Shown in pieces: positions 10,071 to 51,854 of a stretch of 64,000 nucleotides of DNA. Positions within the stretch are counted from its first letter, which is position 1. Each line of letters starts with the position of its first letter. Below the pieces are notes generated by a model, which worked only from the letters and a program-made list of their open reading frames with translations, did no database searches and was not told the origin of the DNA. Where the stretch lies: NCBI GenBank assembly GCA_028876335.1, contig JAGWSG010000134.1, forward strand, positions 1-64,000. Direction: 5' to 3'. Position numbers and translations under genes: made by a program. This stretch comes from Acidobacteriota bacterium (GTDB taxonomy: Bacteria; Acidobacteriota; Terriglobia; Terriglobales; Acidobacteriaceae).

Positions 10071-11543
10071 TTGCGACTAACTGAAGAGTGGGCCTTACGC
10101 GGCATCCATAATGAAGATGTCGCCCTCTCTCAGATTGGAATGGAAACGGAAGCTGCACTCCCAGAGTCATTAACCCGATTGTGCACCAACCCGCGTATTC
10201 AGGTTCGACGTGGCGGCGAAGTGCGTCGCAACGCACGCTGTGTTGTCTACTGGATGCAGCGGGCACAGCGCATCCATGAAAACCCCGCACTCGATGTTGC
10301 CATTGAAGCAGCCAATATTCTGGGCTTACCTGTTGTTGTTTACTTCTCTGTTATTTCCAACTACCCCAATGCCAATGTCCGGCATTACCACTTCATGCAA
10401 CAGGGGCTGTGTGATGTCGAATCAGATGCAGCTGAACGTGGAGTTGGATTCATCCTTCGCCGGCAACCAGATAACTCGCTCGAGGCTTTTCTTGAGGAGG
10501 TTGAGGCAGCGCTCCTAATTGGCGACGAGAACCCCTGTCGTGAGCCGGAGCGCTGGCGCAGCGTGCTTTCTCGCCGGCTCAAGCTGCCTTTCTGGACAGT
10601 AGACTCAGATGTAATTGTTCCTTCAGCCGTGTTCGGCCGAAGCTTTCATCTCCTGCACCACTTTCGCCCTCATCTCAATCGCGAACTGCCGCAATTCCTC
10701 GTGCCAGGCGCCAATCTCAAGCCACAATACGCATGGAAACCCTGGAAGGCGCTGGCCCACTTCTCTCCGAACGGCGATATCACAGAGGGCTTCAAGTCCC
10801 TTGATCGCAAAATCCGTCCGGTGGATACTTTCACGGGTGGGACGCACGCAGCACTGCGCCGTCTCGACGACTTTCTTTGCAAGGGCATTTCAGCTTACAC
10901 GCGTGAACGTAATCTGCCCGAGCGTGACGGCACCAGCCGGTTGTCTCCTTATCTTCATTTCGGACACATCAGCCCAATCACAATTGCTTTTGGAGTTCAA
11001 CGGGCCGTTGAGGCCGGAAGAGTCACGACGGAAGAGAGCACCAGATTTCTTGATCAGGTCATTGGCTGGCGTGAACTCTCTGTGCTCTTTGTTAAATACG
11101 AACCAAATTACGACACCTGGGAGTGCGCCGAACCTTGGGCCCGCAAGACTCTTATGGAGCACGCAGGAGACGTGAGGCAACGCTACGAATATGACGCGCT
11201 TGAACGGGGCGAGACCGGGGATGATCTCTGGAATGCGGCGCAGCGCCAGATGGTGGATACCGGATGGATGCACAATTACATGCGCATGTACTGGGCCAAG
11301 AAGATTCTTGAGTGGGCCCCGGACCCTGCTCGCGCGTTTGAATGGGCCGTCACGTTGAACGACCGCTACGAACTCGACGGTCGCGACCCGAATGGCTACG
11401 CCGGTATTGCTTGGTCCATCGTCGGCAGACACGATCGCCCCTGGTTCAATAGGCCGGTGTTTGGTTTGATTCGTCCGATGAGCGGCGCATCCCTTGCTAA
11501 GAAATTCGACTCCGAACTATACAAACGTACTTACCTCGGCTGA
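10071..11543 (+). CDS. Deoxyribodipyrimidine photolyase, class II-like
   Basis: C-terminal LNDRYELDGRDPNGYAGIAWSIVGRHDRPW...RPVFGLIR is a class II signature. Start uncertain: TTG 10071 or ATG 10140. Confidence 0.85.
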   Translation: MRLTEEWALRGIHNEDVALSQIGMETEAALPESLTRLCTNPRIQVRRGGEVRRNARCVVYWMQRAQRIHENPALDVAIEAANILGLPVVVYFSVISNYPNANVRHYHFMQQGLCDVESDAAERGVGFILRRQPDNSLEAFLEEVEAALLIGDENPCREPERWRSVLSRRLKLPFWTVDSDVIVPSAVFGRSFHLLHHFRPHLNRELPQFLVPGANLKPQYAWKPWKALAHFSPNGDITEGFKSLDRKIRPVDTFTGGTHAALRRLDDFLCKGISAYTRERNLPERDGTSRLSPYLHFGHISPITIAFGVQRAVEAGRVTTEESTRFLDQVIGWRELSVLFVKYEPNYDTWECAEPWARKTLMEHAGDVRQRYEYDALERGETGDDLWNAAQRQMVDTGWMHNYMRMYWAKKILEWAPDPARAFEWAVTLNDRYELDGRDPNGYAGIAWSIVGRHDRPWFNRPVFGLIRPMSGASLAKKFDSELYKRTYLG

Positions 11544-11752: not shown

Positions 11753-14700
11753 ATGTCCCCCTCAGAAGTTACGAGAGGGGAGGCGGGACATCCGGCTCGG
11801 GCGCGTGTGACAGATTCTTCAGTTTGTGTTTTCAGGCACTATTTGGCGGCTTTGCGAGTTCGCGCCGGCGCTCTTCAGGGGCAGCCGCTTCCGTGCGTAA
11901 TCACGGTGAACGTATATGCGCTCTGCATTTTCATCGGTATTGTGGCTGCATTTGCGCAGGCACAAGGTGTGCCACCAATCAAACGAACAGGTCCGGTACC
12001 TCCTCGAGTTGTGCAAGCGCAGCGATTTCTTGCGCAGCGCGGCTGGTCCGTCCGCTCACCCAATCCTTCCGGAGAATTTAGGCCCTCTGCATTGCTGCGC
12101 CCTGTGCCTTCGGATGCCTCAGCCGGCCTTGCTGCGTGGCAACCCCTGGGCCCGGAATCTGTAACCACGGCCAGCTTTGGAGCCGTGACTGGGAGAATAT
12201 CTTCCATCGCATTCGACCCCGCAGATTCGACCGGCAATCACGTGTATGTGGGCACAACTGGCGGAGGTGTCTGGGTCTCGCAGAATGCGGCTACATCGAA
12301 CCAATCCAATGTTGCTTTTACTCCTCTGACGGACACCGTTGACGTGGGCAGTTTTGCCTCCAATGCCTCGATCAGCATTGGCGCGGTTTCTGTGCAGCCC
12401 GGTGGTACCGGTGTTGTGCTCGCCGGTACCGGCGATCCAAATGACGCTCTGGATTCGTACTACGGCGGTGGCATTCTGCGATCCACCGATAACGGCTCCA
12501 CGTGGTCGGTGATCGGTGCCACCTCCGACTATCGGTGGAGCTTCGCCGGCGAAGGATTCGCTGGATTTGCCTGGAGCACGACCAATCCCCAGCTTGTAGT
12601 TGCTGCAGTCTCGCAATCCTATGAGGGTATGCTTGTGGATGCTGAGCGGGCGAGCAGCAGCTATCGAGGGCTCTATTACTCGATCGACAGCGGCGCCACA
12701 TGGTCGCTTGCACGAATCACGGATGGCGCAACGGATGTGCAGGGGCCGAACGCGGCGTTTGCATTGCCGCATGGCAATGCGGTCACGTCGGTTGTTTGGA
12801 ATCAGGTTCGCAAGCTCTTCTATGCGGCAGTGCGTTATCACGGTTATTACCAATCAGTCGATGGACAGACCTGGACCCGCATGGTTACTCAACCGGGCAC
12901 CAATCTGACCGCGGCATTGTGTCCGTCCAATCCAGGCACTACGGGTTCGGTGGCTTGTCCCATCTTTCGAGGCACGCTGGCAGTCAATCTCATCACGGGT
13001 GACACCTTTGCGTGGACCGTCGATGTAAAGAACCAGGATCAAGGAATTTGGCAGGACCCGTGTGCCATTTCAAGTGGCGCATGCGGAAACACGACAGCAG
13101 CGTTCGCGCAACGGTGGAGTACGGCAGACCTTGAGAGCAACACGGTCGAAGGCGCCGCAACTATCGTAAATGGCGACTACACTCTGGCGTTGGCTGCTGT
13201 TCCATCCGGTCAGGACACGATTCTGATGGCGGGCGATGGCGATCTTTGGAAATGCAGCCTGGCGCTGGGATGCGTGTGGCGCAATAGCACCAACGCATTT
13301 AGCTGCAGAAGTGCCCATGTTGCGCCCTACCAGCACGCATTCGCTTGGAACGCAGCCAATCCACTGGAAGTTTTCGTAGGCAATGACAGCGGAGTTTGGC
13401 GTTCTTTCGATGCCATTTCTGAGAGTGGTGCAGCGTGCGATGCGTCCGATGCCACCCACTTTCAAAACCTCAATCAGAGCCTTGGTTCGTTGACGGAAGC
13501 CGCATTTGTTGCGCAGTCGCCCGTCACGCCCTACACCTTAATGGCTGGGCTGGGCGCAAACGGAACAGCAGGAGTGAAGGCCACATCCGGTGCGGTAGCG
13601 GATTGGCCACAGATTCTTGATGGGGAAGGTGGCCCCAATGCGATAGATGCCACCGATGATACCCATTGGTTCGCTAATAACCAGGCTGGAGTCGCGATTC
13701 ATCTCTGCGCGCAGTCGTCGGATTGCACACCAACCGATTTTGGTTCAACGCCCATAGTCACGGAAGCTGACGTAAGCAATGACGGCGTAACAATGACCGT
13801 TCCCGCAAACTTCCTCATCGATCCCTTGGATAACACCAGGCTGCTGGTTGCTACGTGCCGCGTGTGGCGTGGACCCATTGATGGTTCCGCATGGAGCAAT
13901 GCCAATGCCATCAGCGGGTTTCTCGATGGCGTAAGCGGAAAACTCAGTTGCAACGGAGACGCACTGATTCGCGTGCTTGCCGCCATGCCCATTGCGGGCG
14001 GTGATGAAGTGCTCTACGCCGGAATGTATGGCCAAAACGATGGCGGCGCAACGCGCGCGGGCCATGTCTTTCGCGCTGTATACACGCCGGGCGATGGTGT
14101 TCCTGCCTGGAGCGACCTTACATTCAATCCGGTAAGCAACGAGTCAGCCGGCTTCAATGTACAGGCCCTCGACATCACATCCATCGCAATCGACTCGGGA
14201 GATACGACGGGCAACACTCTATATGTCACCGTTGGAGGCGTAGGCAATCCGACGCAGCCCATCACGACAGCCTATCAGTCAACAGATGGCGGGGCGCACT
14301 GGCAGTCGATTGCGTCCAATCTGCCAACTACTCCGGCAAATGCAGTCGTTGTCGATCCACAGGACTCGGCCACGATCTACATCGCCACGGACGTCGGAGT
14401 GTATTCAACGCGTCAGATTTCAAGCTGCACATCCGGCATCGCAAATTGCTGGTCAAAATTTGGAACGGGCTTGCCCATGGCTCCGGTTGTCAGCCTCAGT
14501 ACCTCTGCGCCAGGTTCGTCGGAAAGTGTGTTGGTGGCTGGAACTTACGGTCGTGGAGTCTGGAAGACCGGTTTATGGACTGCAGGAACGCAGCAGACCA
14601 CCGCAACCGCGACTCCTTCCTCGTTGAGTTTTGCCAGCCAGACTGTCGGCACCACGAGCGCCGCACAAACAGTTACGATTACAAATGCTGGCTCCTCTCC

Positions 14701-16993
14701 GCTTGAAGTTTCGGCGGTGTCAATCACCGGGGACTTTGCGCAATCCGGAACCTGCGCGGGCGCAACCATCAATCCTGCTGGAACTTGTACTCTGCATGTC
14801 ACCTTCACGCCTACCCAGACAGGAACTCGAACCGGCAGTTTGTCTCTCGCTGCCAACATTTCCGGGGGGCAGCTGAGCATAGCACTTAGCGGTGATGGTA
14901 CGGCAAGTTCGGCCACATTTGTGTTGTCGCCTGCGTCGCTCGACTTCGGGCAAATTCAAGTGGGCAGTACCTCGCCACCTTTCAGTATCTCGGTAAGCAA
15001 CACGGGAATATCCGCGGTTACAGTTTCGAGTCTCACTGCCACAACGCCATTTGCAATCTCCAGCAGCGCATGTGGAGCTTCTATCGCTGCCAATAGCTCG
15101 TGTCAGGTAACTGTGACGTTTTCACCCACGCAGCAGGGAAGCGTCTCCGGCACATTGACCATGGTTGACTCCGTCGGGACGCAAACGGTCTCACTCATCG
15201 GCAACGGCGCATCCGCACCCACAGATTCCCTCAGCCCCACTTCGCTCACGTTTTCTTCGACAACAGTTGGCCAGGTCTCATCCGCGCAGTCTGTTACTCT
15301 CACCAATTCAGGCGATCTGGCACTCAATACAATCTCCGTACAGATGAGCGGGCCCTTTCAGGCGACAAACGGGTGTGGAGGATCTCTTGCGGCCCACTCA
15401 AGTTGCACCATCGGTGTTGTGTACGCACCAACTCAAACCGGCACGCAAACCGGGACGCTGACAGTGACGGACACTCTGCGTTCACAAACAGTATCCCTTT
15501 CGGGAGCAGGGGTTTCGGCTGCGGCGCTGTCAGTGACTCCAACAGCGGTAAACTTTGCAACGCAGGCACTTAACGTAACCAGTAGCGCGCAAACAATCAC
15601 CGTGCAAAATACAGGAGGCTCTGCTGCAGCCAATATTGGCTTCCAGATTACGGGTTCCTTCAGTAGCAGTTTTGCGGTCAGCTCCACCACCTGTGGAACT
15701 ACGCTCGCTTCTGGTTCAAGCTGTATCGCACAGATTACATTTACACCTCAAGTCGCTGGCGCCAATTCCGCTAATTTGACTGTTTCTTCTTCCACCATCA
15801 GTGTCTCAGCCGTCCAGGTTCCACTGAGCGGAGCTGGACAGGCAACTTCCGGCATCAATGTTTCTCCCGCGCAAATGAGCTTCATAGTAGCCACTCTGGG
15901 GCAGACAAGCGCTCCACAAATTGCAACAATCACCAACTCCGGTTCGCTCACAGCCAGTGGGCTTACCCTTTCCGTCACTTCTCCGTTCAGCCTTTCGCAA
16001 AATTCATGTGGAACAAGCCTTTCCGCTGGTGCGAGTTGTACGGCAAGTGTGGTCTTCACTCCCTCTTCCAACGGCACTGTGAACGGAACATTGACAGTTG
16101 GATCTGCGACCTATAACTCCGCCATCGTCACCCTGGCCGGGAATGGCGGGCAAACCGGTTCCATAACTTTGCAACCAGCGTTTCTCAATTTCCAAGTCAC
16201 AGGCGTTGGTAAGTCAAGCGCTTCACAGACAATGACGGTGACTAACTCCAGTATCACGACGGTTACAAGCGTCACCGTGAAGGTATCCACTAGTTATCAA
16301 TTGACGAGTAATAACTGCGGCACCTCGCTCGCGCCAGGCGCCAGTTGTTCCGTTGGTATTGCCTTTGTCCCAGCTGCGGCTGGCCAGCAGAATGGTTTTG
16401 TTGCTTTTTCGGGAAACGAGTTGCCCTCCCCTGTTCAGGCTCAGTTATCCGGAATCGGATTTGATTTCACGCTGGCCGTGATCGGACCTTCCAGTCAGAC
16501 AGTCAGCAGCGGCCTGACTGCTCAATTCAATTTGCAACTCACGCCACTCAACGGTTCCTCCGGCACCTTTACTTTTTCCTGCGGTGCATTGCCATCCAAC
16601 AGTTCCTGCACTTTCAGCCCCACCAGTGAGTCAGTACCAGCCAATACAACCGGAAGCTTTGTCGTCTTTGTCAAAACCGGCGAGGCACAGGCCGCCTCAA
16701 CCAACATTCCAGGATCATTAAATAGATTGCCATTGTGGCCGACCGGATTGACGATCGCTTTCGCCTGCCTTTGCTGTCCGTTTGTTCGGCAAAGGCGTTC
16801 CCACTCGTGGCTTTTGCTTCTTGTGCTCTGCATTGGCGCCCTCGGACTTGCAAGTTGCGCAGCCGCGGGCGGCGGCTCCAAAGGCACAGTTGGCGGCGGG
16901 CCGTCCACGCCTCCAGGGACATACACCTTTACTGTTACCGCAACAGCGAATGGTCTCTCGCACAGCACAAACCTGACTCTTACCGTCGACTAA
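11753..16993 (+). CDS. Large secreted protein: BNR/sortilin-like beta-propeller, Ig-like (choice-of-anchor D) repeats, C-terminal TM insertion
   Basis: Repeated Asp-box-like segments (STDNGSTW, SIDSGATW, STDGGAHW), then about 6 Ig repeats. GTG 11906 is a plausible true start because it begins a signal peptide. Confidence 0.8.
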   Translation: MSPSEVTRGEAGHPARARVTDSSVCVFRHYLAALRVRAGALQGQPLPCVITVNVYALCIFIGIVAAFAQAQGVPPIKRTGPVPPRVVQAQRFLAQRGWSVRSPNPSGEFRPSALLRPVPSDASAGLAAWQPLGPESVTTASFGAVTGRISSIAFDPADSTGNHVYVGTTGGGVWVSQNAATSNQSNVAFTPLTDTVDVGSFASNASISIGAVSVQPGGTGVVLAGTGDPNDALDSYYGGGILRSTDNGSTWSVIGATSDYRWSFAGEGFAGFAWSTTNPQLVVAAVSQSYEGMLVDAERASSSYRGLYYSIDSGATWSLARITDGATDVQGPNAAFALPHGNAVTSVVWNQVRKLFYAAVRYHGYYQSVDGQTWTRMVTQPGTNLTAALCPSNPGTTGSVACPIFRGTLAVNLITGDTFAWTVDVKNQDQGIWQDPCAISSGACGNTTAAFAQRWSTADLESNTVEGAATIVNGDYTLALAAVPSGQDTILMAGDGDLWKCSLALGCVWRNSTNAFSCRSAHVAPYQHAFAWNAANPLEVFVGNDSGVWRSFDAISESGAACDASDATHFQNLNQSLGSLTEAAFVAQSPVTPYTLMAGLGANGTAGVKATSGAVADWPQILDGEGGPNAIDATDDTHWFANNQAGVAIHLCAQSSDCTPTDFGSTPIVTEADVSNDGVTMTVPANFLIDPLDNTRLLVATCRVWRGPIDGSAWSNANAISGFLDGVSGKLSCNGDALIRVLAAMPIAGGDEVLYAGMYGQNDGGATRAGHVFRAVYTPGDGVPAWSDLTFNPVSNESAGFNVQALDITSIAIDSGDTTGNTLYVTVGGVGNPTQPITTAYQSTDGGAHWQSIASNLPTTPANAVVVDPQDSATIYIATDVGVYSTRQISSCTSGIANCWSKFGTGLPMAPVVSLSTSAPGSSESVLVAGTYGRGVWKTGLWTAGTQQTTATATPSSLSFASQTVGTTSAAQTVTITNAGSSPLEVSAVSITGDFAQSGTCAGATINPAGTCTLHVTFTPTQTGTRTGSLSLAANISGGQLSIALSGDGTASSATFVLSPASLDFGQIQVGSTSPPFSISVSNTGISAVTVSSLTATTPFAISSSACGASIAANSSCQVTVTFSPTQQGSVSGTLTMVDSVGTQTVSLIGNGASAPTDSLSPTSLTFSSTTVGQVSSAQSVTLTNSGDLALNTISVQMSGPFQATNGCGGSLAAHSSCTIGVVYAPTQTGTQTGTLTVTDTLRSQTVSLSGAGVSAAALSVTPTAVNFATQALNVTSSAQTITVQNTGGSAAANIGFQITGSFSSSFAVSSTTCGTTLASGSSCIAQITFTPQVAGANSANLTVSSSTISVSAVQVPLSGAGQATSGINVSPAQMSFIVATLGQTSAPQIATITNSGSLTASGLTLSVTSPFSLSQNSCGTSLSAGASCTASVVFTPSSNGTVNGTLTVGSATYNSAIVTLAGNGGQTGSITLQPAFLNFQVTGVGKSSASQTMTVTNSSITTVTSVTVKVSTSYQLTSNNCGTSLAPGASCSVGIAFVPAAAGQQNGFVAFSGNELPSPVQAQLSGIGFDFTLAVIGPSSQTVSSGLTAQFNLQLTPLNGSSGTFTFSCGALPSNSSCTFSPTSESVPANTTGSFVVFVKTGEAQAASTNIPGSLNRLPLWPTGLTIAFACLCCPFVRQRRSHSWLLLLVLCIGALGLASCAAAGGGSKGTVGGGPSTPPGTYTFTVTATANGLSHSTNLTLTVD
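14600..16460 (+). repeat. About 6 tandem Ig-like (choice-of-anchor D) coding repeats of about 100 aa
   Basis: Repeating units begin with P(S/A)xLxFxxxxVGxxSxxQTVTxTNxG and contain CG..L..GSSC...V.FTP. Confidence 0.85.
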
Positions 16994-17093: not shown

Positions 17094-17399
17094 ATGACGG
17101 CCAATGTGACCGACGAAGATGTGACGCGCGTGGCAGAACTTGCGCACTTGAAGCTCACTGCTGAAGAGTCCGGTGCAATGTTGCATGATCTCAATGCAAT
17201 TCTCGACTACGTTGCGCAATTGAATGAACTGGACACGAAGGACATTGCACCGCTCGCGCAGGTGAGCGAACTTCACGGAACTATGGGTGCGCTCAGGACC
17301 GATACACTCGCGGGGTCTTTGGAGCGCGCTGAAGTCATGGCGCAGGCGCCGGAGACAGATGGCGCATTTTTCAAAGTCCCCAAAGTGATTGAGCGCTAA
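17094..17399 (+). CDS. gatC: Asp-tRNA(Asn)/Glu-tRNA(Gln) amidotransferase subunit C
   Basis: VTRVAELAHLKLTAEE...LNAILDYVAQLNELDT is the GatC pattern; followed by gatA. Confidence 0.92.
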   Translation: MTANVTDEDVTRVAELAHLKLTAEESGAMLHDLNAILDYVAQLNELDTKDIAPLAQVSELHGTMGALRTDTLAGSLERAEVMAQAPETDGAFFKVPKVIER

Positions 17400-17454
17400 A
17401 CGAAACGGGCGCAAACGGCAAACGCAAAAACATTAAGGATTGACGAGCGAAAGT

Positions 17455-18906
17455 ATGAGTGCGGAATCGTACGTAGAAATGCCGAAGTCCCTGAAAGAGC
17501 TTCAGGAGGGCGTGCGCTCTGGCAGCGTAAAAGCCACACATCTTGCCGAGAATTATTTTGAGCGCATCGCAGCAGTCAATCCAAATCTGAATGTCTATTT
17601 AAGCCTCACGCGTGAGCGTGCATTGCAGCAGGCCGCAAAGGTCGATGATGCCGCGTCGAAGGGAGAGCCGCTCGGTCCGCTTGCAGGCATTCCGGTTGGC
17701 ATCAAAGACGTGCTTGTTGCAAAGGGCGCACCCGCCACCGCAGGATCCAAGATCCTGAAAGGCTATCAGCCGCCCTACGATGCAACGGCGGTCAAAAGGC
17801 TGGAAGCGGCTGGAGCTGTAATCCTGGGCAAGCTTAATTGCGATGAGTTCGCCATGGGGTCCTCCAATGAAAACTCAGCGTATGGTCCGGTGCGCAATCC
17901 AGTCGACACCGATCGCGTACCCGGCGGATCGAGTGGTGGCTCCGCGGCCGCAGTAGCAGCCAATCTGGCAGTGGCCACGCTTGGAACGGACACTGGGGGC
18001 TCCATTCGTCAGCCTGCGAGTTTCTGCGGCGTGGTCGGCGTTTTGCCTACCTATGGACGGGTTTCGCGGTTTGGCCTGATTGCCTTCGCTTCGTCGCTCG
18101 ATCGTATTGGTCCGTTTGCAGGTAATGTTCGCGACGCAGCAACAATGCTGGGCGTGATTGCTGGACATGACCCCTGTGACGCAACAAGCTCTGAAGCGCC
18201 CGTACCAGACTTCGCCGTTGAATCAGATAAGCCCGCGGATGGGTTGCGAATCGGCGTGCCGGAAGAATATTTCGCAGAGGGTCTCGACCCCGAGGTGCGT
18301 GCAAGCATTGAGAAGGGAATCGATGCACTTCGTGTGGCTGGCTGCTCCATCAAGAAGATTTCGCTCCCAACCACTCGCTATGCCATACCGACCTATTATC
18401 TGGTTGCTACGGCTGAGGCGAGCGCCAATCTGGCACGCTTTGACGGAGTACGTTATGGGCATCGCTCTTCCGAATCAACAACGCTTGCGGACATGTATAG
18501 CCATTCCCGAGACGAAGGTTTCGGTGCGGAAGTCAAGCGCCGCATCATGCTTGGAACCTATGCGCTCTCTGCCGGCTACTACGATGCCTATTACCTAAAG
18601 GCCCAGCAGGTAAGGCGTCTCCTCGCCGAGGAGTTCCTGCGCGCATTTGCTGAGGTCGACGCCATCGTCACGCCTACCTCACCCACACCCGCTTTCCGGC
18701 TGGGTGAGAAGGCCAACGATCCGCTGGCAATGTACCTCGCTGATATCTACACGGTCACTGCAAGCCTGGCTGGCATCTGCGGTGTAACTGTGCCATGCGG
18801 AGCTACCTCGACTGGTTTACCGGTCGGCATGCAGGTCCTGGCGACGCATATGAGCGAAAGCACAGCATTTTGCGTGGCACGCGCAGTTGAGGCAGCGAAG
18901 ATTTAG
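17455..18906 (+). CDS. gatA: Asp-tRNA(Asn)/Glu-tRNA(Gln) amidotransferase subunit A
   Basis: Amidase signature GGSSGGSAAAVAANLAVATLGTDTGGSIRQPASFCG. ATG 17455 preferred over TTG 17440. Confidence 0.95.
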   Translation: MSAESYVEMPKSLKELQEGVRSGSVKATHLAENYFERIAAVNPNLNVYLSLTRERALQQAAKVDDAASKGEPLGPLAGIPVGIKDVLVAKGAPATAGSKILKGYQPPYDATAVKRLEAAGAVILGKLNCDEFAMGSSNENSAYGPVRNPVDTDRVPGGSSGGSAAAVAANLAVATLGTDTGGSIRQPASFCGVVGVLPTYGRVSRFGLIAFASSLDRIGPFAGNVRDAATMLGVIAGHDPCDATSSEAPVPDFAVESDKPADGLRIGVPEEYFAEGLDPEVRASIEKGIDALRVAGCSIKKISLPTTRYAIPTYYLVATAEASANLARFDGVRYGHRSSESTTLADMYSHSRDEGFGAEVKRRIMLGTYALSAGYYDAYYLKAQQVRRLLAEEFLRAFAEVDAIVTPTSPTPAFRLGEKANDPLAMYLADIYTVTASLAGICGVTVPCGATSTGLPVGMQVLATHMSESTAFCVARAVEAAKI

Positions 18907-38747: not shown

Positions 38748-41700
38748 TTATCGGGCTTCGGTCAGCGCATCCGTAGCTTTGCTCATCTTGGCAGTTCGTT
38801 CAAGTTTGTCCCAGTTAAAGGGCTTGCCGTCAATCGCACGCTTCAGCGTCTTGAAGAGCACGATGGAAAATACCTGGCGGTAAGCAAAGCGCTGCAGCCA
38901 GATATGGAAGAGCAGCCAGCCATCACCTTTATTGGCCGGATGCCTGCGCTCAAGTGAGAACGCGATTGTCGAGGTCACAAAGTCGATCAGCAGGAAGGTA
39001 AGGAAGTAGGCCAGCAGCTTCATGAAGCTCGCCGCAGACGCCGCCTCGGGGTGATAATGCCGATCGACCAGATACTGCACAATTCCGCCAAGGAACATGA
39101 GATCAATAAACGGCGAAACCAGAGGGAGCAGCATCTGAAAGATGAGGATGTTAGGCAGTGCGAACAGTCCCATGGCCTTGTTGCGCACAAAGGCGAGCCG
39201 ATGCTTCCAGACGGCCTGCAAAATGCCGAATGACCAGCGGAAGCGCTGCCGCATCAAACCCTTTGCATCGATAGGCGCTTCAGTGAAGGCCAGAGCCCTG
39301 TCTTCATACACCACACGATAGCGCTGCTCCAGCAAATTCATGGTAAGGTCGGCATCTTCCGCCACCGTATTCAAGGGGTAGCCGCCAGCCTTCTTGACTG
39401 GTGCAGTGCGCCACGCACCAATTGCGCCTGGCACCACAGTGACGACGTGGAAGAGATCCATTGCACGGCGTTCAAAGTTCTGGCTGGTGATGTATTCCAA
39501 CGCCTGCCACCGCGTCCACAGATTCACGCGGTTGCCCACTTTTGCGTTTCCGGCAACAGCACCGATACGAGCATCTTCAAAATGCGGAATCAGTTTCGAG
39601 ATCGCATCCGAAGCAATTACCGTGTCCGCATCAATGCCGACATAAAACTCTTCGTTCAAGTGTTCCAGTGCAAAGTTCAGCGCGGCTGCTTTGCCACCGT
39701 TTGGCTTGGTCAGCACTTCCACGCGTCCTTCGGCAATCTCGGCCCTGTAAGCCTCGCGTGCCACGCGAACCGTGTCGTCTTTTGATCCATCGTCAATCAC
39801 AATCACGCGCAGATGCGGGTAATCGGAATTCAACACGGAACGAACCGTGCGAACAATGACCTTCTCTTCGTTATATGCAGGAACAAGCACTGCCACCTGA
39901 GGCGCAAAGCCTTCCGAGGCATTGCGGTGGGGACGGCGCAATCGGTCGATGATGGCGAAAAGTCCTACGAGGACAAGTCGCGCGCTCATCAGAATGTCGC
40001 CGATAAAGAAGACGCCAACAATGAAAGTGCCGATCATTGAAAGCATTGAGAAGGCAATTGAATCAGGGATTGCGCGCACATACTGCCAGAATGTGAGCGC
40101 GGGCATGACCTGCGCCGTAGTTTTCCCCATCAGTGCGGAAACGGGAACAATCTTGTATCCGTGTGCACGGAGAGTGTCGATCAGAACAGGCAATGCCGCA
40201 ATTGTCGCGGAACGGTTTCCGCCGCCATCGTGCATCAGGATGATTGAGCCGCGGAGCTGCGGCCGCGTCTTCATCTCATTAAGCGTATCCAGCACCGTCT
40301 GCGTAATTTCCTGCGGCGACTTGTGGACACGCTCGTCCCAGTCATTCGTGTCAATTTTATTGCCGATGATAGTGAAGCCGAGTTGCTGCACATGGAAGAC
40401 CGGCGCGGCCTGATCGTCGGTGTCCGGCTCTTCGTCAATGTCGTACGGCGGTCTGAAGTAAAGTGGCTCAACGCCCAGCTTGCTGGCGAAGAGACGTTCC
40501 GTCAGTTTGACTTCCAGATCGAGCTGGCGCTGCGAGATTTCGCTGATGTCAGGATGCGTGTAGGTGTGATTGCCAATCTCATTCCCTTCACGCTCAACCC
40601 GTTGCATCAGCCCAATGTTTTCCTGGGCCTCATCGCCAATCATCATGAACGTAGCCTTCACGTTCTTCTGTTTCAAAATATCCAGGATCTTCGGCGTCCA
40701 ACGCGGATCGGGACCATCATCGAATGAAATTGCAACCTCATTGGGCTTATATCCGTAATATTCAACCGTGCAAGGGCGCGGATACACATCCATGTGCTCG
40801 TGGACGATGAGCTTCTTGCGGGGATCGGGTTCATCCGGATCGGCTTGTACAGTGCGCTTTCCGGGCTTTGGCAGGCCGGTTACGCGCAGAATATCCCCTT
40901 CGCCTTCCTGGTCCACCTCGTGACCCGGCTGAACGTTCCCAAGCGAAGTTAAGGCGGTCGGAAGCATGGGGCGATCCCAGATGCTCCACAGGGAACTGTC
41001 TTCAGACCCCAATCTCCACAGCGCAAAGGTTTGCAGCCCTAGCTCGCGCGCAGCACGCATTTCATTCAGCACAGTCACGCCGTCAAGGAACCAGACCACA
41101 TGCTTCTGGTTTGCGTCTTCATCAATGTATTCAAAGTGCGGATTCAGTGATGTCTGGTCCAGATCAAGATCGGCGTTCGCGTCAGAGGCGCGCTGCCACG
41201 CCTCCGACACAGTCAGATCCTCAGTGTTAACGACTTCAGGCTTTTCCGCTCGATGACCGCGTTTCGGCTTCTGCGGAATCGACAGGGTCCAGTCATATCC
41301 ATAACTACCCAGTGCACATATGAGCTTCTGCTTCGGGACAGCTTTCAAAGCCTTGGTTAGATTCGCAACGAACCATGCCTGGCTTGCAATAGGTCCAGGA
41401 TCGCTTTCGACCTCATGCTGGTCATAGTTCATCAGCACAAGTCCGTCGGCATTGGCGGCCATCTGCTTCAGTTGCGCAGCCGGTGTGGAGACCGGAACGT
41501 TGATGTAGAGGCGAAGATTGCGTTTTGAGAGACTCGCGTAAAGCTGCTGGATAAAAGTGAGGTAGTCGGGAACGGCGCTATCCGGAAGACTTTCAAAGTC
41601 CAATGAGATGCCGGGGTAAACCCAGTCACCCTTATCGGTGCGATACGTGGTGAGGAAGACAACGATCTCGTCAATCAGCTGAGTCCGCTGGTCAGCATTG

Positions 41701-42299
41701 GCCAGTACCTGTGAGAAGTTAGCATCCCATTTCTGCACAGAAGAGTCGAAATTGTCCAGGTGGGGAAAGACTTCAGTGTCTTCATGGGCCGCCGCAATCG
41801 CACGTTTGATCCGGTTCAGATCATCCGGGTCATGCACTGTGTTTCCATCAACGATGCGATAGCTTCTGTGGCTTTCGTTGTTGATTCCCAGAAGATGCGG
41901 GTTGGAACTCGTGGAATGAAGCCATGCGGGAAAGAGGATATCGATTTGATGAACGTGCTGCTTGAAGGACGAATAACTGGCTTCGTCATAGGGCACGTAA
42001 TAGGCGGCTCGCAGCCCTTCACCGCTGTTGAAGGGAATTTCGGAGGCTTTCCGTTGGGTTTTGCGATGACTTGGATGCACGGGGTGCCCATACCGCGTCA
42101 CAGCGGTGTTATCGCGGATTGCCCTGTAATTGTGTTTCGGTGACGGTAGCAGCAATTCGGGCAGCGGATTGCTGCGCAGCACATTGAAAATAAACCCGAT
42201 CAGCACCAGGGTAATGACAACGGCGGAAATATCAATCAAGCGACGAAGCCGCTTCCAGCGTTTGCGCTCAGGGTCGAAGAATATCTGATCTTCCGGCAT
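38748..42299 (-). CDS. GH18-like / polysaccharide deacetylase (CE4) / GT2 glycosyltransferase fusion
   Basis: 1183 aa. GH18 motif GISLDFE, NodB motifs SFDDGPD and HTYTHP, GT2 motifs VPAYNEE, DDGS, DADT and QRFRW. Confidence 0.92.
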   Translation of the reverse strand: MPEDQIFFDPERKRWKRLRRLIDISAVVITLVLIGFIFNVLRSNPLPELLLPSPKHNYRAIRDNTAVTRYGHPVHPSHRKTQRKASEIPFNSGEGLRAAYYVPYDEASYSSFKQHVHQIDILFPAWLHSTSSNPHLLGINNESHRSYRIVDGNTVHDPDDLNRIKRAIAAAHEDTEVFPHLDNFDSSVQKWDANFSQVLANADQRTQLIDEIVVFLTTYRTDKGDWVYPGISLDFESLPDSAVPDYLTFIQQLYASLSKRNLRLYINVPVSTPAAQLKQMAANADGLVLMNYDQHEVESDPGPIASQAWFVANLTKALKAVPKQKLICALGSYGYDWTLSIPQKPKRGHRAEKPEVVNTEDLTVSEAWQRASDANADLDLDQTSLNPHFEYIDEDANQKHVVWFLDGVTVLNEMRAARELGLQTFALWRLGSEDSSLWSIWDRPMLPTALTSLGNVQPGHEVDQEGEGDILRVTGLPKPGKRTVQADPDEPDPRKKLIVHEHMDVYPRPCTVEYYGYKPNEVAISFDDGPDPRWTPKILDILKQKNVKATFMMIGDEAQENIGLMQRVEREGNEIGNHTYTHPDISEISQRQLDLEVKLTERLFASKLGVEPLYFRPPYDIDEEPDTDDQAAPVFHVQQLGFTIIGNKIDTNDWDERVHKSPQEITQTVLDTLNEMKTRPQLRGSIILMHDGGGNRSATIAALPVLIDTLRAHGYKIVPVSALMGKTTAQVMPALTFWQYVRAIPDSIAFSMLSMIGTFIVGVFFIGDILMSARLVLVGLFAIIDRLRRPHRNASEGFAPQVAVLVPAYNEEKVIVRTVRSVLNSDYPHLRVIVIDDGSKDDTVRVAREAYRAEIAEGRVEVLTKPNGGKAAALNFALEHLNEEFYVGIDADTVIASDAISKLIPHFEDARIGAVAGNAKVGNRVNLWTRWQALEYITSQNFERRAMDLFHVVTVVPGAIGAWRTAPVKKAGGYPLNTVAEDADLTMNLLEQRYRVVYEDRALAFTEAPIDAKGLMRQRFRWSFGILQAVWKHRLAFVRNKAMGLFALPNILIFQMLLPLVSPFIDLMFLGGIVQYLVDRHYHPEAASAASFMKLLAYFLTFLLIDFVTSTIAFSLERRHPANKGDGWLLFHIWLQRFAYRQVFSIVLFKTLKRAIDGKPFNWDKLERTAKMSKATDALTEAR

Positions 42300-48932: not shown

Positions 48933-51854
48933 TCAAGGATGAATCTCAATCGCAATCGGCAGAGAACTCGCATTGCCTGTTGTTGCGGTTGCCACGGTGT
49001 TGGTGGCCACACCGGGAATGGATGCAGGGGTGAAGACAACCAGTCCGGAATTGTCTGACGTCGCCGTGGAAACCTGCGTGGCCAGCAAGGGGGACGCGGT
49101 GCAGCGGCCATGCGGCGGGCACGGCGGAGCCCAGGCGTAGAGCGACTGATAGAGCGTCACCGTGCCACCTGCCATGGGATTGCCGTTGAGGTCATGCACG
49201 CGAAGCACAATCTGGCTGGGAGTGCTCGAGACAGCAACGGACTGTGTGGTGCCGCTGACGGCTTTCACGGTGGCAAACTCCGGCCGCGCGCCAAGCACGG
49301 TGAAATCCGCGCAATTTGCTGTGCCGTTCACGCACGCCGTGGCTGTACTCAGCACTCCTTCGGTTCGCGGAGAGGCAGTGAGCATTTTGGTTGCGATGCC
49401 GCTTGAGCTGCTTGTTGAAGTAGAGCCTCCCTGCACCGTAATGTCGCATCCGCAGTTCGAATCCCACGCGACCATTTGTCCGCTCACCGGTGTTCCGTTG
49501 TTCAAAACGATGGCTTCGGTCGTCCAGTTGACCGAAGCGCCGGTTGCGACGGAGAGGAACGGAGTGAGCGCCGTTAGCACCGGCGCGCTGCCGCCCGTGA
49601 AGTGCGCCTGCAGACTCGCGTTGTTGGTGAGAGAAGCCGTCACGACCGCGGGCGAGGTGTTGAGCGCCGTGACTGTCATGGTGGCCAGCCCGTCGCCGGT
49701 TGCTGTTACCGAGCACACCGTGGAGCCGCAACCGAGGGTCGCCGATCCGCTGGTGACCGAATACGTCACGGTTACCCCGCTGGCCGGTACAAGGGATGCA
49801 TTCAAAGCCTGTACAGAGAAGGGAAGCGGCACGCCAACGGAGACTGTATTCGAAGGGGCAGTGACAAGCGTGAGCGAGTCGCCTGTGCCGGCGTCATAAC
49901 TGATGCCGCCAGTGATGATTGCCGCCGCGGAATAAAGGGGAAGATCGTCGACTTCAACGTCTGCCGAACCTGCAGCTGTCACGGCCGGTGCGATTGCCGT
50001 GATTTCTGTGGGCGAAATGCTTGTAACAACGGCCGGCCTGCCGCCTACGGTCACCGTGTCCTGCGAGCGAAAACCTGTTCCGCGAATCACGATCGGGCCG
50101 CCGCCCAGGGGCAGGTGCTCGGGTTGCACGGTGTCGGCATAGAGCAGCCAGCCGGTGTAGAGATAGTCGGGCCGCCCGTCTCCGCGCAGATCGGCAATAC
50201 CGATGCGCACGATATCGTCTGAAGCTGTGCTTACCTGCAGCCAGCTCTCACCGGTGGCGAAACCGTTGAATCCTGGTACCCAACCCACCGCGGGTGAGCC
50301 TGTTGTGTCGAGCGCATCCCACACGCCGAGAGAGGGCATGGCTCTTGAATTGCTCGGGATGCCGTTCTCATTGAGTGCCTGCGTGACCAGCGTGAAGGTA
50401 CGGTTGGCACGCACTGGAAAGAGGAACCAGTCGGTCTGTTCCACTTGACCAATGCGGCCTGTCCAGAGCCCACCCTGCGGCAAGGGCCGCGGGCTGTTCT
50501 CCGTTGCAATTGCATCCTGCGATCCGGTCGCTGCCGAGTCGGAGATGGGTACATCGAGTGTCTGGGTTGAACCCGGTGTCATGTTGGTCACAGTCAAAGT
50601 CGGCATGGTGCCGGAGGGGCTCGGTGAACCGTCCACATAAGGGCCAACAGCATTGTTCATGATGTAGAGCGGATTGATGGCTTCAAATGTGATCTGATAG
50701 GTCGCCGTCGTCATGCCCGGCGGTAAAGGCATATAGCTCAGATCAAAAAAGCCCTGTTGGCTCGGGTCCGTTCCGCCCCACTTGGAGTAAGGCACGCCGC
50801 TGGAATCCTGCCATCCCGTCACCGGATTACCGTGCTTGCCGCGAAACGTCGCCCCGCTGACCGCCGTGATCGTGTACTCGTAGAGCGGATTCCCGTTCGC
50901 GTCCAGCGGTCGTGCCACAACGTTCACACCCTGCATCCCCACGCCGGTGCGGAACTTGAGAGTTCCGCTGATCGAAGCCGTGTTTGCCGCCGTCAGCTCC
51001 TTCCCGGGGAAGCTGGAGAGATTCGTCGCCGTGATCGGGTAGATGCGGTTGAGTGCCGCAATGTCATCAAGCCGCAATTGCGTCGGGTTAGGGATGCAAT
51101 TCCCGCCACTGTTGCCGCATGCGCCGCTGATGGGCTGCATCACCGGCCAGCCCTGCGTGCCGTTCGGCATGCCGTTGGTAGCCGCGCCGTCGTTCACCTG
51201 TGAGTAGCCAAGGCCAAGAATGCGCCCGAAGGCGCGCTCCAGCTCAAAGCCAATCATGGTCAACTGGCTCGCCGTGCCCGCGCAGCGCCCGTTGACCAGG
51301 ATGACAGCGTGACTCACGGTGGCATCGGTGTTGATGCCGTCCATCCAAAACCAGACGCCGTTGAACTGGCAGCTTGTCGGGTCGCTGGCGCCTGTGCCGA
51401 AAAGCGCGTCGGTAACCGAGCCGTCGGTGTCAAAGACCACGCCGACGGGGTAGTTGGTTGCCGATGGCGTCATGTCCGAAGGTGCGGCGAAGACCTTGTT
51501 CCCCGCCACGGTATTCAGGCCGCTCACATCTTCGTTGAGCGTGCCCTTGTCGGTCAGCGTCACTCCGGCGGTCGGAACTGCGCTCCAAATAGCCGCCGCT
51601 GCGTCCACCATAGCCACGGCCTGTGCATTGCTCACGCTGGCGTTCAGCGGTCCCTGGTCCACGTAGTAATTAAGCGCACCGTTTCTCCAGTGGACCGGCT
51701 GGCCAATCACGGCGGGATCAAAATAGCTGGAGCCGGCGATGTACTTGGGGCCTCCGGCAAGCGCGGAAGCAGGGCACAGCGTAAGTGTGAATCCAAACAT
51801 TAGAAATGACTTAGAAAGCCAGACTTTTGTCTTCCTGTGGAGGCAGTGGGACAT
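48933..51854 (-). CDS. Secreted multi-domain protein with matrixin-like degenerate N-domain and IPT/Ig-like domains
   Basis: 973 aa. Signal peptide, matrixin-like region, then IPT/TIG-like (GGGPIVIRGTGFRSQDTVTVGG) and bacterial Ig-like segments. Confidence 0.8.
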   Translation of the reverse strand: MSHCLHRKTKVWLSKSFLMFGFTLTLCPASALAGGPKYIAGSSYFDPAVIGQPVHWRNGALNYYVDQGPLNASVSNAQAVAMVDAAAAIWSAVPTAGVTLTDKGTLNEDVSGLNTVAGNKVFAAPSDMTPSATNYPVGVVFDTDGSVTDALFGTGASDPTSCQFNGVWFWMDGINTDATVSHAVILVNGRCAGTASQLTMIGFELERAFGRILGLGYSQVNDGAATNGMPNGTQGWPVMQPISGACGNSGGNCIPNPTQLRLDDIAALNRIYPITATNLSSFPGKELTAANTASISGTLKFRTGVGMQGVNVVARPLDANGNPLYEYTITAVSGATFRGKHGNPVTGWQDSSGVPYSKWGGTDPSQQGFFDLSYMPLPPGMTTATYQITFEAINPLYIMNNAVGPYVDGSPSPSGTMPTLTVTNMTPGSTQTLDVPISDSAATGSQDAIATENSPRPLPQGGLWTGRIGQVEQTDWFLFPVRANRTFTLVTQALNENGIPSNSRAMPSLGVWDALDTTGSPAVGWVPGFNGFATGESWLQVSTASDDIVRIGIADLRGDGRPDYLYTGWLLYADTVQPEHLPLGGGPIVIRGTGFRSQDTVTVGGRPAVVTSISPTEITAIAPAVTAAGSADVEVDDLPLYSAAAIITGGISYDAGTGDSLTLVTAPSNTVSVGVPLPFSVQALNASLVPASGVTVTYSVTSGSATLGCGSTVCSVTATGDGLATMTVTALNTSPAVVTASLTNNASLQAHFTGGSAPVLTALTPFLSVATGASVNWTTEAIVLNNGTPVSGQMVAWDSNCGCDITVQGGSTSTSSSSGIATKMLTASPRTEGVLSTATACVNGTANCADFTVLGARPEFATVKAVSGTTQSVAVSSTPSQIVLRVHDLNGNPMAGGTVTLYQSLYAWAPPCPPHGRCTASPLLATQVSTATSDNSGLVVFTPASIPGVATNTVATATTGNASSLPIAIEIHP

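Follow-up and report, generated by a model that had tools for sequence, protein, structure and literature searches.

The N-terminal lipoprotein signals that serve as substrates of Lgt and LspA combine a basic n-region, a hydrophobic stretch, a small residue followed by cysteine and a Gly/Ser-rich tether. All of these recur in the protein described here, but internally, after a TM helix and near the C terminus: the lipoprotein-like signal lies at residues 1679-1702 of 1746, and the protein carries its own N-terminal signal peptide elsewhere. Two families of C-terminal sorting signals also resemble it. PEP-CTERM signals, the substrates of exosortase, share a TM helix followed by basic residues near the C terminus, but there is no PEP-like motif here, and exosortase was not found in this genome (PF09721 has no match in its 91% complete assembly). 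In the MYXO-CTERM/myxosortase system, the C-terminal tag has an invariant cysteine, predicted to be lipidated, ahead of a single TM helix and an Arg-rich cytoplasmic part, and is cut off after the cysteine (PMC11980579). The C-terminal position, invariant cysteine, TM helix and Arg-rich part are thus shared, whereas Cys1702 of the protein described here follows the second of two helices, sits in a lipobox-like context and has an Ig hairpin beyond it.

The closest described entity is a catalogue entry, the NCBIfam profile NF058595 ('lipo-invert putative C-terminal anchoring domain', or invert_tail). The protein reaches 68.8 bits with this profile (E = 4.7e-19, protein search), covering profile positions 4-112 of 113, and because this exceeds the curated cut-off of 37 bits, the kind is already catalogued. 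By profile match, the terminal segment is an invert_tail domain as listed by NCBI; it has the C-terminal position, TM pair, basic loop and cysteine of that domain, matches nearly its whole length, and no difference from it was established. In the literature searched, we found neither a paper that mentions NF058595 or invert_tail by name nor a tested mechanism for the device.

We analysed a 64,000-nucleotide stretch of acidobacterial DNA (the window), in which the tail protein is encoded between a DNA photolyase gene (10071-11543) and gatC/gatA (17094-18906). Its features, in window coordinates, are:

11753-16993, + strand: whole open reading frame, 1,746 aa; translation probably begins at a more internal codon, such as the GTG at 11906, judging by the position of the signal peptide
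11906-11962, + strand: probable N-terminal Sec signal peptide of the signal peptidase I type (VNVYALCIFIGIVAAFAQA before QG), without a lipobox, by direct reading
12080-14572, + strand: Vps10/BNR-like repeat (propeller-like) region with approximate boundaries, from a weak Pfam match to Sortilin-Vps10 (E 8e-4 over residues 839-908), with BNR scoring below its cut-off
14585-16450, + strand: six choice-of-anchor D/ASH Ig-like repeats (NCBIfam NF012200, 5e-86, six stretches; Pfam ASH, 8e-39)
16463-16678, + strand: N-terminal half of the split Ig-like domain (residues 1571-1642), modelled by AlphaFold2 as seven strands
16658-16987, + strand: NF058595 invert_tail match, 75.8 bits on the six-frame genome and 68.8 bits on the protein
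16727-16786, + strand: TM1, LPLWPTGLTIAFACLCCPFV, residues 1659-1678, a likely stop-transfer helix by hydropathy and the positive-inside reading
16787-16807, + strand: basic loop RQRRSHS, residues 1679-1685, predicted to be cytoplasmic from loop charge in 112 members
16808-16855, + strand: TM2, WLLLLVLCIGALGLAS, residues 1686-1701, resembling the h-region and lipobox of a lipoprotein signal, from comparison of homologues
16856-16858, + strand: Cys1702, invariant lipobox cysteine and putative lipidation and LspA site, the sole invariant column in an alignment of 89 sequences
16859-16915, + strand: Gly/Ser-rich linker, residues 1703-1721, by direct reading
16916-16990, + strand: C-terminal beta-hairpin completing the Ig domain in the AlphaFold2 model, strands 1722-1732 and 1735-1745, at the protein end

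The last domain therefore runs from Ig strands through a linker, TM1, the loop, TM2 ending in LAS-Cys1702 and the Gly-rich linker to two final strands and the stop codon. That an Ig-like domain is interrupted near the C terminus had been proposed from the DNA letters, and the peptide is indeed in frame in the open reading frame at 11753-16993, with its segments exact. The segment proposed as its extent, 16709-16993, stands, but the whole split domain is larger, its Ig part beginning at about 16463.

Whether the two flanks belong to one fold had been set beforehand as a possible refutation of the original prediction, which took the segment beyond the hairpin for the missing final strands. In an AlphaFold2 model built with 89 sequences, strands from 1571-1642 and 1722-1745 form a single Ig sandwich with a pLDDT of 96-98 in both halves, and the pLDDT falls to about 55 through most of the insert. 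Matches to Ig-like domains found with Foldseek cover the entire query. A divergent second member likewise has strands on both sides, at a lower pLDDT of about 86-94, with two helices predicted. The arrangement is mirrored at the sequence level by an uninterrupted homologous Ig domain, residues 1-79 of which are matched by the N-terminal half here and which aligns to several split domains as two pieces flanking the insert (for example, query residues 2-76 and 61-102 in G023:C54). As modelled, the flanks of the hairpin make one Ig fold.

This fold bears on whether the tail could be a separate small lipoprotein gene with an internal start in the loop, fused to its neighbour by annotation only. 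In-frame ATG, GTG or TTG codons do occur in or near the loop in 55 of 112 members (ATG in 20), but the other half has none there, among them the window's copy by direct reading, the frame is open throughout, and in the model the tail supplies precisely the strands that the upstream Ig domain lacks. We regard a separate gene as scarcely credible.

Lack of recurrence in homologues had been named as the other possible refutation, and a profile search found the pattern widely. Among 247 genomes sampled from the phylum, all 26 that belong to the window's family have copies, with up to about 18 NF058595 matches per genome, and there are few convincing cases outside that family. Within the class, families f76 and f77 carry the tail in nearly every sampled genome, and f2, f75, f78, f79 and f80 are mostly without it. 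The sole named relative found with a single-protein query comes from a Granulicella MAG, which agrees with a placement in Acidobacteriaceae. Another genome of the same genus (G007) has a syntenic orthologue (L204), 55% identical overall and with a photolyase gene just upstream (L160/L204), that retains the anatomy even though TM1, the loop and TM2 are just 17-38% identical. Judged from these sequences, the split domain is not a product of chance or of a frameshift.

Not every NF058595 match outside the main families, weak or above the cut-off, shares this architecture. Two that rank among the best outside the window's family were set aside: in L034 the Ig domain is uninterrupted, and L033 resembles the lipoprotein signal of an N terminus, the profile thus matching even an apparently true signal of that kind. 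A convincing member (L014/L043 in G216, 81 bits) occurs in another class of the phylum. The tail also varies in form. Short members with open frames of about 314-345 aa (L004, L024, L086, L132 and G000:C71:9013-9366) have an aromatic-rich sequence in place of the Gly linker after the cysteine (for example, SPLYYYKNHGPPTN in L004), and a subfamily comprising L030, L077, L095, L103 and L137 is almost without a Gly linker at this point (for example, CAGGYFALSPKTYSITVTG in L030).

The lipobox-like LASC had been read from the window's copy alone, and comparison strengthens that reading: LAS-Cys1702 follows a basic region and a hydrophobic stretch, an arrangement that recurs in homologues. Statistics on the loop, TM1 and TM2 come from 112 non-redundant members spread over several families of the class. 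The cysteine is invariant in all of them and always preceded by G, A or S. It is the only invariant column of the 89-sequence alignment, in which 89 of 89 sequences have G, A or S before it where TM2 composition predicts about 26, and the strict lipobox [LVI][ASTVI][GAS]C is found in 32 of 89 against 6.3 expected. The third position before the cysteine is looser than in the textbook lipobox. In the class's other families, all 20 members examined show the same invariant cysteine preceded by G, A or S. Because the profile used to find the 89- and 20-member sets itself contains the cysteine, we also used the uninterrupted Ig domain as a Cys-free query, and in the interrupted domains that it retrieved TM2 ends in G/A/S-Cys in 12 of 12. 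Automatic assignment placed W or P before the cysteine in 2 of the 112 members (L060 and L102), apparently by picking cysteines of TM1; the sites read directly have Gly.

The surroundings of the cysteine are similarly uniform across the 112 members. TM2 is about 18 residues long. The loop is net positive, with a median charge of +4, and contains acidic residues in just 6 members. Almost every cysteine is followed by G, S or A and none by Asp, the residue by which lipoproteins avoid Lol in E. coli. In the chains that were read, the protein ends 35-56 residues past the cysteine, just beyond the last strand. Cys1702 might instead have a non-lipid role, such as a disulfide or a metal contact, and the N-terminal half of the Ig domain does bear a Cys pair of its own (SCGALPSNSSC). 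We consider this very improbable, as Cys1702 ends a hydrophobic helix, always follows G, A or S and is mostly succeeded by Gly/Ser-rich sequence, and the 89-sequence alignment holds no invariant partner cysteine.

Taking sequence and model together, we think it probable, though well short of certain, that the last Ig domain contains an internal lipoprotein signal acting as a C-terminal anchor, with a generic Lgt/LspA site and TM1 serving only to return the chain to the membrane's inner side. The N-terminal signal peptide would export the protein until TM1 halts transfer and sends the chain back to the cytoplasm, where the basic loop would remain. TM2 would then re-insert oriented like a normal signal peptide, bringing the lipobox cysteine to the periplasmic face, where ordinary Lgt and LspA could act on it, and the last two strands, past the cysteine, would pair with strands of this Ig domain that precede the hairpin. 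We rate the odds that Cys1702 is lipidated as good, and those of cleavage by LspA as moderate. If LspA cuts before the cysteine, a short lipidated peptide would stay with the large ectodomain through the shared Ig fold, with no covalent bond between them; without a cut, a hairpin anchor with a lipidated cysteine would carry the Ig domain. The topology, the attachment by the fold and any outer-membrane destination are likewise inferred.

In the fuller version, ordinary LspA cuts within the last Ig domain and beta-strand complementation alone keeps the lipidated C-terminal peptide attached, in many proteins per genome; this is conceivable but on balance doubtful. No precedent for LspA acting on an internal signal was found in the literature searched. 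A dedicated second LspA was rejected, as each of the 11 genomes sampled from the window's family encodes just one, and any processing would therefore use the general enzyme. Most members begin with an ordinary signal peptide and, as far as read, show no convincing lipobox there. Mutual exclusion between an N-terminal lipobox and the tail was nonetheless given little weight, because comparison proteins without the tail are nearly as poor in such motifs (1 of about 11). One protein without invert_tail, L203 (G254:C35), has a lipoprotein-like signal at its N terminus (YACGGGGGSS) as well as an Ig domain that is uninterrupted.

Cleavage is where the main competing explanation parts from the internal lipoprotein signal. 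The hairpin may be an inner-membrane anchor that holds the Ig domain and stays uncleaved, possibly with a lipid on Cys1702. A pair of plausible TM helices joined by a positive loop fits such an anchor, an uncut chain requires no non-covalent clasp, and across the 112 members we found neither a conserved motif in TM1 nor a conserved cut site ahead of it. An invariant cysteine preceded by a small residue is, however, a combination common to LspA substrates, and an invariant cysteine with only G, A or S as its neighbour would be needless for a plain hairpin. We judge the uncleaved anchor unlikely, while giving it real weight.

The internal lipoprotein signal also leaves a release problem. After a cut by LspA, TM1 and TM2 would still tie the large piece to the inner membrane. 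Lipidation by itself therefore fails to explain release to the outer membrane, which would need a second cut. One way around this is sorting by two cuts, in which TM1 is a signal of the exosortase, rhombosortase or myxosortase type that is cut on the outside, and the lipidated tail alone carries the ectodomain to the outer membrane. A TM helix followed by Arg-rich residues does have the shape of a CTERM signal. Against it, there is no conserved motif ahead of TM1 in the 112 members, and exosortase is missing from the window's genome and several tail-rich genomes but present in tail-free ones, a distribution that differs from that of the tail and led us to reject exosortase as the partner enzyme. 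Two-cut sorting is accordingly improbable in our view.

Elsewhere in the window, on the - strand, a 1,183-aa protein (38748-42299) joins GH18-like, polysaccharide deacetylase and family 2 glycosyltransferase domains, and a 973-aa protein (48933-51854) with TIG and Big_1-like Ig domains is possibly another surface protein.

As read from their sequences, many surface-type proteins in these bacteria end in this device. If the internal signal proposed here is processed, it would be an exception to the textbook rule that lipoprotein signals are N-terminal, and it would provide a predicted anchor for a large set of proteins secreted by acidobacteria.
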